From an uncultured Pseudomonadota bacterium (GTDB taxonomy: Bacteria > Myxococcota_A > UBA796 > SXON01), in the NCBI GenBank assembly GCA_903959175.1, contig CAJBVW010000102.1, positions 1 to 54,842 of the forward strand: a stretch of DNA of 54,842 nucleotides, given 5' to 3'. Numbering within the stretch: position 1 is the stretch's first letter; the number at the start of each line of letters is the position of its first letter. Shown piece after piece: positions 42,600 through 47,349 of the stretch. The notes beneath the pieces are model-generated. The model was given only the letters and a program-made list of their open reading frames with translations. It had not been told where the DNA came from and ran no database searches. The translations under genes were made by a program, and so were the position numbers.

Positions 42600-45500
42600 C
42601 TACCGCCCGCGCGGCCGTTCCTCGGGGCGGGGGGGCTTCCCCTGACCGCGGGTGCCGTCGCCCTTCGGCGGCGCGTCCGCAGGGCGCACGGTGGCGCCGC
42701 TGCCGCCCTTGCGGATCTGGAAGACGACGCGGCGGTTGGCCTCGCGGGCCTCCTCGCTGGTGCCGGGCTGGAGCGGCTCGGACTCGCCGTAGCCCTTCGC
42801 CTCGAGGCGCGCGGCTTCGACCCCGGCAGTCACGAGGTAGTCGCGCACGGCGGCGGCGCGGCGATCCGAGAGGCCGAGGTTGTAGGCGTCGGAGCCCTGG
42901 TCGTCCGTGTGGCCCTGCACCTCGACGAGCGTGATCTCGGGGTGGTTCAGGAGGATGGCGGCGACCTCGTCGAGGAGGCGGAAGCTCTCGGCCTTGATCG
43001 TGGCGCTGTCGAACTCGAAGAAGATCTTGTCGAGGATCTCGACGCGGTCTCCCTTGACGACGGCCCGCGCCTGCTTGAGGACGACCGAGACGCGCGCGGG
43101 CTGGTCCTTGCCGACCTGCGTCGTGACGCGCTCGGCCTGGTAGCCCTCCGCCCACACGGAGAGCTCCGCGGGACCGACGGGGATCCGCTCCTCGCCGACG
43201 CCGTCCGCGCCGGTGGTGAACTTCTTGCCGCCGCCGAGCACGGTCACGAGGGCCGCCACGGGGGCGCCGGCCTCGTTCGTCGCCGCGACGATGACGCGCC
43301 CCCCGAGGATCACGGGCTGCATCGTGAAGGTCTTCTCGAAGCGCTCGGCGTCGGGCACCTTCATCGCGCCGGCTTCGCTCTCGTAGCCCTCGGCCGCGGC
43401 CACGACCTTGTAGTCGCCGGGCGGGAGCGAGCGGGTCATCTCGCCGCTGCCGAGCACGTAGCGGCCCGACTCGGGGCCGGACTCGAGCTCCACCGAAGCG
43501 TTCGCGATGCGCTGGCCGCGCGGGTCGATGACCTGGAGGCGGGTGGGGGTGAGCCCGGCGTCGGGGCAGCCGTCCTCGTCGTTGCGGCCGTTGCGGTCCT
43601 CCGGCTGGCCGGGGCAGAGGTCCTTCGCGTCCTCGATGCCGTCGCCGTCGCGGTCCGGGCCCTTGGCGGAGGTGACGACGTCCGCGTCGCGCTTGACGAC
43701 GGGCACCCACGAGAGGCCGGCGATCGCGCGGAAGTCGGGGGCGCCCACGCCGGTGGTGAGGCCGGTGCCGAACGCGCCGCTCACGACGAGCTCGGGGCGG
43801 GGGTAGTACTTCACGCCCGCGTGCCACTCGATGGGGGCGGCGCCGAGCGCGTCGAGCTGGGTGAGGGAGAGCTCGCCGTCGATCTCGGCGAAGGCGTCGA
43901 GCTCCTCGACCACCGGGACCGCGCCGCCGAGGCCCCAGAGGAGGCGGGTGCCCCAGTTCAGGTCGGGGAGCAGGTCGGCGACGCCGCCGCCGCGCACACC
44001 CACGTTCGCCGAGACGATGCCGCGCTTGCGGCCCGCCGTCGCGATCACGCGGCCGCCGAAGGTGGGGGAGGGGTCTCCGAGCCAGGCGTCGGGGTTGCCG
44101 GTGGGCAGGCCGAGGTCGATGGCGGCGCCGACGCCGAAGCCCGTCTTGGCGCGGTCCACGAGGGTGGCCTTCAGGTCGAGGCGGAGGTCGCCGGGGTTGA
44201 AGCTGCCGCCCGTCGCGAGGTCGCTCCCGGACGCGAGGTGGAGCGGCATGTCGACCGCGAGGCGGAAGCGCGAGAGGGTGAAGAAGACCGCGAGGTTGGC
44301 CGTCGCGACGTCACCGGTGAGGCGGGTGTCCTCGGCGTCGCCGTCGTAGCGGTAGATCAGCGGATCCTTGGCGTAGTCGAACCAGAAGCCGCCGCCGATG
44401 CCCGGCCCGGGGACGGAGGCGTCCTCCACCGCGAGGAGCGAGCGGCCGTCCGCGACGGGGCGGAAGCGCTGGGCGTTGAACTGGTCCTGCGCGTGCGCGG
44501 TGCCGAGGCCGCCGAGGAGGGTGCCGCCGAGCGCCGCGGCCGTGACCTGACGCCGGCGCCGCCGGAGCACGCCGCCGAGCGCGAGGAGCGCGGGGAGGAG
44601 CGCCGTGCGGGGGTCGACCACGGAGCAGGCGCCGCCGGTGTAGTGGCCGCAGTCGAGGAAGGGGTCCTCGGTGTCGCAGTTCACCGTGTCGCCCGTGTCG
44701 TCCCCGGCGGGGTCGTCGCAGCCGTCGGCGTCGAATTCGTCGTCGTTGATGTCGGGGAGGCCGTCGCAGTCGGCGTCCTCGTCGCAGGACTCCTCACCGT
44801 CGGGGATACCGTCGCCGTCTGAGTCGGCGTTGTCCGTCTTCGACGCGCAGTCGGCCTCGGTGGCGTTGTCGAGGCCATCGCCGTCGGGGTCGGCGCAGGG
44901 GCCGTCCGTGTCGTCCGCGTCCTGGAAGTTGGGGAGGCCGTCGCAGTCGTCGTCCGCGGTGCCCTCGTCGACGTCGGGCTTGCCGTCGCCGTCGGCGTCC
45001 GTGTCGCGGTTGTCGGGGGCGCCGTCGCCGTCGGTGTCGCCGCCGCCCTCGGTGACGGTCGGGATGGTGTCGTCGTCGTCGTCGGGGTCGCAGAAGTCGG
45101 GGGCGCCGTCGCCGTCGGTGTCGCCGCGGCCCTCGTCGGCGTCGAGGATGCCGTCCCCGTCCTGATCGTCGGCGGTGCCGACCTCGGCGCAGGTGTCCTC
45201 GACCACGTCGGGGATGCCGTCGATGTCGCTGTCGAGGTCGTCCGCGGGGTCGTTGGGATCGGTCTCCCAGGGGTCGATGAAGCCGTCGCCGTCGAGGTCT
45301 TCGGCGCCGTCCGGCAGCGTGCCGCCGTCGGTGTCCTCGGACAGCGGGTTCGTCGTGGTGGTGGGGTCGGCGTCCGGGGTGAAGCAGCCGGCGGACACGT
45401 CGGTGCCCGCGCCCGCGTCGACCACGCCGGACTCGAGGCCGTCGGAGAGGCCGTCCCCGTCGCTGTCGCAGTCGAGGGCGTTCGTTCCGGCGTCGACCTC

Positions 45501-46340
45501 CTCCTGGTCGCCGAGGCCGTCGTCGTCGCTGTCTCCGTCCGTCGGGTCCGTGCCGAGGTCGCCTTCCTCGATGTCGGTCAGGCCGTCGCCGTCCTGGTCG
45601 ATGCCGATGAAGTCGGTGGTGACGTCCGGCATGGCGCCGGGGCCGGCCGTGCCGTCGTTCCCGGCGAGGTCGTTGTCGATGTCGAGCAGGCCGGGGCTGT
45701 GCTGAGTGCCGATCACGACGCCGAAGGTGCTGTCCAGGGCGTTCCCCGTTACGAAGTCGAGGGTCGCGCGGTCGAACTGCATGTCGATGAAGTAGTCGGT
45801 GGCGCTGTCGAGGTCGGTGCCGGCGTCCGTCACGCGGGCGAGGCCGCTGGTGAGCGGGTCGTACCAGGAGGAGGTGAAGGACTCGACGGGGTCGTACACG
45901 CCGAGGCCGTCGTCCAGCGTGTTCTCGTTCAGCTCGAGGATGCCGATCGGGCCAGTGATGCCGAGCTGGTACTCGTAGGTCGTGGGGTCGGCGTCGGTGT
46001 CGAGCAGGAACGCCCAGCTGCTCGCGCGGAAGCTCGTCGCGGTGAGGAGGGGGGACTCGTTGACCCGCATCCGCAGGTAGAAGGCGGCGTCGTCCGCGTA
46101 CCAGTAGGCGACGGGGGCGACGAGCGTGGCGTCTCCCACGAGGTCGATGCTCCCGTGCGTGCCGACGTCGTCGCCGGCGCCGCTGCCGTCGAGATCGGGG
46201 TTCTCGTCGAAGCTCGGATCGTAGAGATCCACACCGTCCTTCCGGAAGGCGACCCATGCGTCGTCCGCCGGCCAGGCAGCGAGGGCCTGCGACGGGGCCA
46301 GCAGGGCGAGGGCCAGCGGCAAGCGGTGTGCGTTCTTCAT
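42600..46340 (-). CDS. TSP3-repeat protein with MYXO-CTERM-like tail fused to an OmpA-family outer membrane protein
   Basis: A 1246-residue single reading frame with two apparent proteins. Part one (1-598): signal peptide ending near ALAA, a beta-rich domain (about 30-235), many thrombospondin type 3 Asp repeats (about 240-545; DGDGLTDIEEGDLGTDP), then CGHYTGGACSVVDP, a hydrophobic stretch and RRRRR (593-597), which looks like a MYXO-CTERM sorting tail. Part two begins right there: LRRRRRQVTAAALGGTLLGGLGTAHA is itself a good signal peptide; a beta-barrel domain, a TSP3 motif, two carboxypeptidase-regulatory-like beta sandwiches and a C-terminal OmpA peptidoglycan-binding domain (HTDDQGSDAYNLGLSDRRA) follow. 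An internal GTG at 44570 (codon 591) could start part two alone. Confidence 0.85.
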   Translation of the reverse strand: MKNAHRLPLALALLAPSQALAAWPADDAWVAFRKDGVDLYDPSFDENPDLDGSGAGDDVGTHGSIDLVGDATLVAPVAYWYADDAAFYLRMRVNESPLLTATSFRASSWAFLLDTDADPTTYEYQLGITGPIGILELNENTLDDGLGVYDPVESFTSSWYDPLTSGLARVTDAGTDLDSATDYFIDMQFDRATLDFVTGNALDSTFGVVIGTQHSPGLLDIDNDLAGNDGTAGPGAMPDVTTDFIGIDQDGDGLTDIEEGDLGTDPTDGDSDDDGLGDQEEVDAGTNALDCDSDGDGLSDGLESGVVDAGAGTDVSAGCFTPDADPTTTTNPLSEDTDGGTLPDGAEDLDGDGFIDPWETDPNDPADDLDSDIDGIPDVVEDTCAEVGTADDQDGDGILDADEGRGDTDGDGAPDFCDPDDDDDTIPTVTEGGGDTDGDGAPDNRDTDADGDGKPDVDEGTADDDCDGLPNFQDADDTDGPCADPDGDGLDNATEADCASKTDNADSDGDGIPDGEESCDEDADCDGLPDINDDEFDADGCDDPAGDDTGDTVNCDTEDPFLDCGHYTGGACSVVDPRTALLPALLALGGVLRRRRRQVTAAALGGTLLGGLGTAHAQDQFNAQRFRPVADGRSLLAVEDASVPGPGIGGGFWFDYAKDPLIYRYDGDAEDTRLTGDVATANLAVFFTLSRFRLAVDMPLHLASGSDLATGGSFNPGDLRLDLKATLVDRAKTGFGVGAAIDLGLPTGNPDAWLGDPSPTFGGRVIATAGRKRGIVSANVGVRGGGVADLLPDLNWGTRLLWGLGGAVPVVEELDAFAEIDGELSLTQLDALGAAPIEWHAGVKYYPRPELVVSGAFGTGLTTGVGAPDFRAIAGLSWVPVVKRDADVVTSAKGPDRDGDGIEDAKDLCPGQPEDRNGRNDEDGCPDAGLTPTRLQVIDPRGQRIANASVELESGPESGRYVLGSGEMTRSLPPGDYKVVAAAEGYESEAGAMKVPDAERFEKTFTMQPVILGGRVIVAATNEAGAPVAALVTVLGGGKKFTTGADGVGEERIPVGPAELSVWAEGYQAERVTTQVGKDQPARVSVVLKQARAVVKGDRVEILDKIFFEFDSATIKAESFRLLDEVAAILLNHPEITLVEVQGHTDDQGSDAYNLGLSDRRAAAVRDYLVTAGVEAARLEAKGYGESEPLQPGTSEEAREANRRVVFQIRKGGSGATVRPADAPPKGDGTRGQGKPPRPEERPRGR

Positions 46341-46452: not shown

Positions 46453-47349
46453 CTAGGGGGAAACGTCGGGTGTGGGAGGCGTCCGGGCGCCGCCGTCCGG
46501 GCACCCGTCGGCGTCGTTCCCGCCGTCGAAGTCCTCGCGTGCCCGGGGGCAGGCGTCCACCGCGTCGGCGACCCGATCGCGGTCGCCGTCGGCGCCCTCC
46601 GTGCGGGGGCGGCGGGCCTTGTGGGGGGGGATCCACGCGGCACCGAGTGAAAGCGACGGGAAAGCGGAGTCGGGGGTGATGCCCACGGCCGCGCTGAGCA
46701 CGAGGGGACGTGCGCCCTCGGCGAAGCGGGGGGCGAGGTGGAGCCCGGAGCGCGCGCCGCGGATCGCGGGGGCGCCGAAGGTGGGCGGGAAGCCGGCGAC
46801 GCCGATCGGGCCCATCCCGTCGAGCTCCGCGAAGGCGCCGAGGCCCTCGGTGAGCGGCAACGCCCCGCCGATCGCCCAGGTGAACGCCTCCAGCGGCGGC
46901 CCGATCGGCGCCCCGAGGTTCACCGACACCACCGTGTCCTTCTTCCCGACGGCGAGGGCGATCCGACCCCGCGGCGCCCGATCGTCGCCGCGCACGAAGG
47001 GGAGGGGCGTGTCGACCCCACCGGCGACCCCGAGTCCGCCGTTCTTGCGGTCGTGGAGGACGAAGAGGAGGTCGATCCTTGGGAGACGACCAACGATGCG
47101 GTCCGCGCCCACGTCGGCGGGGAACACGAGCGCGAGCCGGAGGGGGCGGACGGTCCACCCCACCACCGCCGTGCCGGTGAGCGAGGAGGAGACGGCGCCG
47201 AGGCCGCGCCCCTCCACGAAGAGACCGCCGCCCGGCCCGTTCCCGTCGAGCGCGGGATCGAGGACCGTGTAGAGCGCACGCGCCTCGGGAGCGGGGGCGA
47301 CGTCGGCCGCCGTCGCGTCGAGCGCGGAGACGACCAGGAGCGCAAACAT
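46453..47349 (-). CDS. Barrel-like envelope protein related to the OmpA-family neighbour
   Basis: A 298-residue secreted protein with a short signal (MFALLVVSALDATAA). The main part (about 30-245) has regularly alternating strands and Gly/Ala turns consistent with an outer-membrane beta-barrel, and ends with a thrombospondin type 3-like Asp motif (DGDRDRVADAVDACP, NDADGCPDGG). The order 'GLxWxP...DGDxDxxxDxxDxCPxxxEDxxGxNDxDGCPD' repeats the one in the middle of the OmpA-family neighbour, so the two are likely paralogues, this one lacking the OmpA domain. ATG 47349 is used because a hydrophobic segment follows at once. Confidence 0.72.
   Translation of the reverse strand: MFALLVVSALDATAADVAPAPEARALYTVLDPALDGNGPGGGLFVEGRGLGAVSSSLTGTAVVGWTVRPLRLALVFPADVGADRIVGRLPRIDLLFVLHDRKNGGLGVAGGVDTPLPFVRGDDRAPRGRIALAVGKKDTVVSVNLGAPIGPPLEAFTWAIGGALPLTEGLGAFAELDGMGPIGVAGFPPTFGAPAIRGARSGLHLAPRFAEGARPLVLSAAVGITPDSAFPSLSLGAAWIPPHKARRPRTEGADGDRDRVADAVDACPRAREDFDGGNDADGCPDGGARTPPTPDVSP

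Follow-up and report, generated by a model that had tools for sequence, protein, structure and literature searches.

The closest described counterpart of the gene analysed here is MXAN_5598 of Myxococcus xanthus, which, in the sections of Guo, Haft and Wall (2025, PMC11980579) that treat it, joins an internal MYXO-CTERM tag to a barrel and an OmpA region, like TraA plus TraB. The same sections state that myxosortase cleaves MYXO-CTERM, call internal tags of this type rare, propose for MXAN_5598 that genes were fused and that its N-terminal part is processed, and place its gene in the ftsA/ftsZ cluster. The same study employed laboratory E. coli as host for a MYXO-CTERM. The protein also appears in a table of vesicle cargo, the part of PMC4158809 that concerns us. 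The traA and traB genes of M. xanthus form one operon with a four-base overlap, as stated in the relevant portion of Pathak (2012, PMC3325183). Sorting of MYXO-CTERM proteins has been tied to an enzyme only recently.

We analysed a stretch of 54,842 nucleotides (hereafter the window) carrying a gene in which a MYXO-CTERM-like tail runs in frame into a second protein. Going by the published sections on MXAN_5598, the kind is already known, and what the present locus adds is a tandem signal peptide, its conservation, the recurrence and breadth of the arrangement, and a gene linkage. Because the same arrangement recurs among relatives, it is probably real, a way of making the pair together and not a sequencing error. 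As judged from sequence, the conserved fusion most likely encodes a polyprotein with two predicted cuts.

Parts of the fused gene

The coordinates of the gene and its parts are collected in Table 1. Foldseek comparison of the N-terminal domain with solved folds gave no match at E<=0.001, and the Asp-rich DxDxDG repeats that follow, which by eye we take to be thrombospondin-type-3-like, were without a match in a Pfam scan. Nearer the other end, PF13620 scored 58.7 bits (cut-off 32.3) and PF13715 fell under its cut-off. The AlphaFold model is informative for the barrel and uninformative on topology, with pLDDT below 50 across most of the junction.

Table 1. Positions in the window of the fused gene and its parts
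Feature	Coordinates	Strand	Basis or remark
Fused gene, 1246 aa	42600..46340	-	one open frame, ATG at 46340
N-terminal signal peptide, residues ~1-22, MKNAHRLPLALALLAPSQALAA	46275..46340	-	sequence; cut position inferred
Putative adhesin N-terminal domain, residues ~23-245, predicted beta-rich	45606..46274	-	model, mean pLDDT 81.8
Asp-rich DxDxDG repeats, residues ~246-568	44637..45605	-	sequence
Internal MYXO-CTERM tail, residues 569-597, GGAC572SVVDPR-TALLPALLALGGVL-RRRRR	44550..44636	-	
GTG, codon of Val591, possible internal start	44568..44570	-	unconserved as start
Second signal-peptide-like stretch, residues 598-617, Arg cluster as n-region	44490..44549	-	
Outer-membrane beta-barrel, FapF/COG4313-like, residues ~618-890	43671..44489	-	structure model and Foldseek
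Carboxypeptidase-regulatory-like domains, residues 936-1091	43068..43535	-	Pfam
OmpA peptidoglycan-binding domain, residues 1107-1203	42732..43022	-	PF00691, 78.9 bits, cut-off 27.2

At the junction, GGAC(572)S precedes a hydrophobic stretch (residues 579-592) and RRRRR (593-597, at 44550-44564), after which come a second hydrophobic stretch (598-612) and GTAHA (613-617), with zero stop codons between the MYXO-CTERM tail and the second hydrophobic stretch. The sequence-only reading had described just such a Cys motif, hydrophobic stretch and RRRRR running into a second signal peptide ending GTAHA, and its coordinates are exact. Signal peptidase I is predicted to cut after AHA617, which would leave a mature protein that begins QDQFNAQRF (residues 618-626, 44463-44489).

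A second gene for a barrel of this family, with neither an OmpA domain nor a Pfam match, lies directly upstream (46453-47265, minus strand), and its counterparts share contigs with fused orthologues in two other genomes (G001 and G002). The same genome holds a second fused protein (L018, on contig C181) in a frame of 2066 aa, with differently composed repeats before the tail. It also holds a pair of fused frames, 765 and 772 aa long, that are nearly identical and have little adhesin ahead of the tail (L013 and L014, on contigs C70 and C597); they represent either two copies or two strains within one assembly.

Fused and split forms among relatives

A query made from the junction and barrel found a match at E<=1e-15 in 37 of the 38 genomes searched, the gene's own included. 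Among the relatives, 29 of 30 loci, the window included, keep the junction in a single frame uninterrupted by a stop; at the remaining locus (L037) the contig begins inside the barrel. The tail Cys and one tail Arg are invariant in an alignment (A1) of 28 sequences, comprising the window and 27 loci, with L037 and L052 omitted as partial. Fusion is retained by orthologues in six families (f1 to f6) with one split exception. An ordinary linker, which the sequence-only reading had considered, might be expected to lack the hydrophobic and Arg stretch in orthologues; instead, the order of Cys, hydrophobic stretch, Arg cluster, hydrophobic stretch and AxA is kept and recurs beyond chance, and the segment joining the Arg cluster to the barrel differs among orthologues in both its length and its sequence.

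The named records that match closely are from metagenome assemblies, and several carry the name Myxococcota or Myxococcales; the organism is therefore probably an uncultured member of Myxococcota. Three relatives (L062, L063 and L097) come from public metagenome-assembled records whose titles, Klebsiella pneumoniae, Bifidobacterium breve and Acetofilamentum, look mislabelled.

On the matter of one gene or two, both forms occur. Of 162 distinct barrels, 47 have an in-frame tail fused to them, another 50 lie after a separate gene that itself ends in a tail (in the same frame for 16 and in a different one for 34) and for 65 no tail was found, after reassignment on reading of L228 and L245 to fused and of L169 to none; the loci were partly selected for long open frames, and the fused fraction is therefore not an estimate of frequency. 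When 40 additional loci were inspected by eye, 22 proved fused (including one duplicate), two were in-frame pairs and one was an oddity; no tail was seen in the rest. Thirty loci from nine more genomes, partly repeating earlier loci, yielded five fused (L371, L376, L385, L394 and L395), four of which come from G168 and G193, genomes that each consist of a single contig. Fused rows span 15 family groups (f1-f7, f12, f15, f23, f27, f36, f41, f42 and f44), nine of them beyond the original six and with single-contig genomes among them.

These observations bear on the possibility that the gene is an artefact of assembly or sequencing, or that a stop between two genes was recently lost. The window's assembly is fragmented (611 contigs, 7.2 Mb) and split pairs do occur, as such an explanation would allow. 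However, the same fusion is present in other assemblies from relatives as well as in the single-contig genomes named above, and we hold this explanation to be extremely improbable. For the family as a whole, orthologues in six families that read through the junction refute a lost stop. Of the idea that two former genes had lost a stop, the missed stop is rejected by the orthologues, but a two-gene ancestry is plausible, pairs being common.

In a tree of the 162 barrels, one clade of 41 consists of 39 fused rows plus a split one and a truncated one. In a larger tree of 199 barrels (L037 omitted, L303 dropped as identical to L093, and L302 counted as fused), the corresponding starred branch subtends 46 rows, of which 44 are fused and the others are the single-helix L302 and the split L248. 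Within the order, this main fused clade covers families f1 to f6. On the larger tree the fused label changes at least 14 times, and starred branches force at least 9 of these changes, although this count comes from a quick tree search with some fused rows on long branches and does not separate gain from loss. Set side by side, the fused and split forms suggest pairing of the TraA/TraB kind as a general theme of the phylum.

The relatives also allow an assessment of the GTG at 44570, which the sequence-only reading had offered as a start for the OmpA part alone. Were an internal start such as this one to give rise to the barrel-OmpA protein on its own, the fused frame would be incidental. The codon is indeed in frame and well placed, giving MLRRRRR and a normal signal peptide, and two genus relatives (L027 and L028) have GTG then ATG there. 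Yet 12 of 39 main-clade orthologues lack any ATG, GTG or TTG between 14 and 45 codons ahead of the cut, an ATG is missing there from 27 of 39, and a Shine-Dalgarno match of at least 5 of 6 serving such a codon occurs in 0 of 39, compared with 18 of 50 two-gene pairs. In many orthologues, therefore, the barrel half and its signal peptide can come only from the fused chain. With start codons and Shine-Dalgarno sequences absent as counted, we reject an internal start as a conserved mechanism, and separate synthesis of the barrel-OmpA protein seems to us a rather remote prospect.

The two signals and the enzymes that might act on them

Pieces of the tail ending at RRRRR contain the Cys motif, hydrophobic helix and Arg cluster of a MYXO-CTERM, and they score 21.3 bits (43-aa piece) and 20.6 bits (55-aa piece) against TIGR03901, whose cut-off is 20. 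The predicted N-terminal signal peptide expected of such proteins is found in the window protein and in its orthologues, which likewise have a hydrophobic leader at the N-terminus. With 649 residues after RRRRR, the tail is internal and departs from the C-terminal position of the class. The Cys is invariant in all 47 fused tails, a partly circular result given that the tail detector searched for one, and only 21 of the 47 match TIGR03901 at E<=0.001 in a scan for which the L245 tail had been cut at the wrong Arg pair.

When the second hydrophobic stretch is left attached, the tail scores 19.0 bits, just under the cut-off. This value, together with the fact that cleavage at both sites rests on inference, offers some encouragement to an account in which the chain is uncut, or cut once, and the two hydrophobic stretches form a hairpin that anchors or links the adhesin and the barrel. 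Against it, a hydrophobic core followed by AxA precedes the barrel in 45 of 47 fused junctions (38 of 39 in the main clade and 7 of 8 elsewhere), similar to the N-terminal signal peptides of two-gene pairs (44 of 50). Stand-alone barrels have the same features in 55 of 63 cases, a count that skips two rows with fewer than 15 upstream residues and still includes L037, and random windows drawn from the same proteins have them in 171 of 6440. L245 and L235, the two fused junctions that deviate, by eye have Thr where the first Ala would stand. Moreover, an inner-membrane hairpin and an outer-membrane barrel on one chain would have to span the periplasm. We consider the hairpin account unlikely, and favour cleavage at both signals.

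The sequence-only reading had attributed cleavage of MYXO-CTERM tails to a rhombosortase-like system, an assignment that the genome does not support. It encodes a myxosortase-core protein (L059, 110.5 bits, cut-off 100), whereas no rhombosortase exceeds the curated cut-off of 84, the best score being 44.1 bits, and we reject rhombosortase as the tail protease. The myxosortase-family proteins that were scanned reached none of the cut-offs for MrtX, MrtC and MrtP. A signal peptidase I over cut-off is present in the same genome, in which the type II secretion secretin is represented only by pieces, all under cut-off. Across the order, 59 of 63 genomes have a myxosortase-core gene over cut-off, and the four others (G301, G318, G037 and G026) are all incomplete assemblies.

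One locus deserves separate mention. L302 (G318:C25:24500-26600) is fused, yet has a single hydrophobic stretch between the Cys and AxA, which would not give the two-helix topology that we propose below. Its missing stretch tallies with the lack of a myxosortase-core gene over cut-off in G318, a single case that is suggestive only.

In eight of eight loci read, from families f4 (G028, G248, G024, G215 and G290) and f6 (G030, G035 and G326), the fused gene and larE are divergently oriented, with a myxosortase gene following larE; these genomes were selected for having the fused and myxosortase genes on one contig. The scan of adjoining proteases covered six of the eight, each of which exceeds the cut-off for the myxosortase core. 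Around 20 other myxosortase loci (families f1, f2, f3 and f5), no barrel lies within the 5 kb read, and in the window's own genome the fused gene and the myxosortase gene are on different contigs.

In the window's own genome, too, the gene for the sulfur transferase LarE is the immediate neighbour of the myxosortase-core gene (L341:2889-4456, G000:C19). This adjacency recurs in all eight neighbourhoods of fused genes (L333-L340) and in 11 of 20 further loci (L346-L365). LarE was identified with its NCBIfam model in the window's genome, and the copies in other genomes by their similarity to it. The neighbourhood could be a lead on the Cys-modifying step of MYXO-CTERM sorting.

A putative two-cut polyprotein and its known counterparts

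On grounds of sequence, we think it likely that the gene product is an outer-membrane polyprotein giving two proteins, a counterpart in one chain of the TraA/TraB pair, which would be cut by myxosortase and signal peptidase. The first signal peptide would initiate export of the adhesin, and the internal MYXO-CTERM helix would act as a stop-transfer sequence that keeps the Arg cluster on the cytoplasmic side. This cluster could then double as the n-region of the second hydrophobic stretch, permitting the chain to re-enter the Sec pathway. A protease of the myxosortase family, as opposed to a rhombosortase, would cleave just after Cys572, and the released adhesin would keep a modified Cys for surface anchoring. 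Cleavage by signal peptidase I after Ala617 would free the barrel-OmpA protein, which might insert into the outer membrane and bind peptidoglycan. A single translation event followed by two cuts would therefore supply the adhesin and its presumed membrane partner in equal number and in the same place. A polyprotein cut at the tail and again by signal peptidase was one of the two alternatives originally put forward, and it is well supported: the double signal is conserved and recurrent, and a myxosortase gene adjoins in two families, even if all of this support is drawn from sequence.

More broadly, we lean, if only slightly, towards the view that two-cut outer-membrane polyproteins form a widespread bacterial class, with a single Arg cluster both ending a myxosortase sorting tag and starting the next signal peptide. 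Such a genetic lock on equal numbers would have repeatedly arisen from, or been lost to, TraA/TraB-like pairs, and in some lineages would have been kept beside the myxosortase gene. If the chain is cut twice, the junction would serve as a natural reporter whose two sites lie about 45 residues from each other, and would predict which adhesins pair with which OmpA-type barrels.

Bacterial precursors split at an internal signal peptide do exist, an example being the fbcH polyprotein of the Bradyrhizobium cytochrome bc1 complex. Its proteins are, however, unrelated to those of the fused gene, and the sorting tag is absent. Literature searches at the level of titles and listings turned up no paper describing a two-cut precedent with an internal MYXO-CTERM and signal peptide. 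The modelled barrel has the same fold as FapF (5o65, 5o67 and 5o68) and a COG4313 channel (4rl8), with Foldseek E-values down to 2e-10, although identity is about 12-17%.

The likeness to TraA/TraB, as portrayed in the relevant portions of the published accounts, lies in the order of a MYXO-CTERM surface protein and then a protein with an OmpA domain. The best NCBIfam match of the OmpA half is the TraB model NF033763, but its 169.7 bits are far under the cut-off of 700. Two genes are used there and one gene here, and the adhesin half, unlike TraA, has no PA14 match at E<=0.001.

MXAN_5598, which we compare by its description only, differs in that the pertinent sections of PMC11980579 make no mention of a second signal peptide. 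It also adjoins ftsA/ftsZ, whereas here ftsZ is on contig C483 and the fused gene on C102, and we reject a link to the division cluster on this basis; no fused gene beside ftsZ was seen in the other genomes examined, among which we identified no MXAN_5598 orthologue. Nevertheless, what those sections describe for MXAN_5598 recurs in the window: an adhesin region, an internal MYXO-CTERM, an outer-membrane barrel and an OmpA domain, all in one frame.
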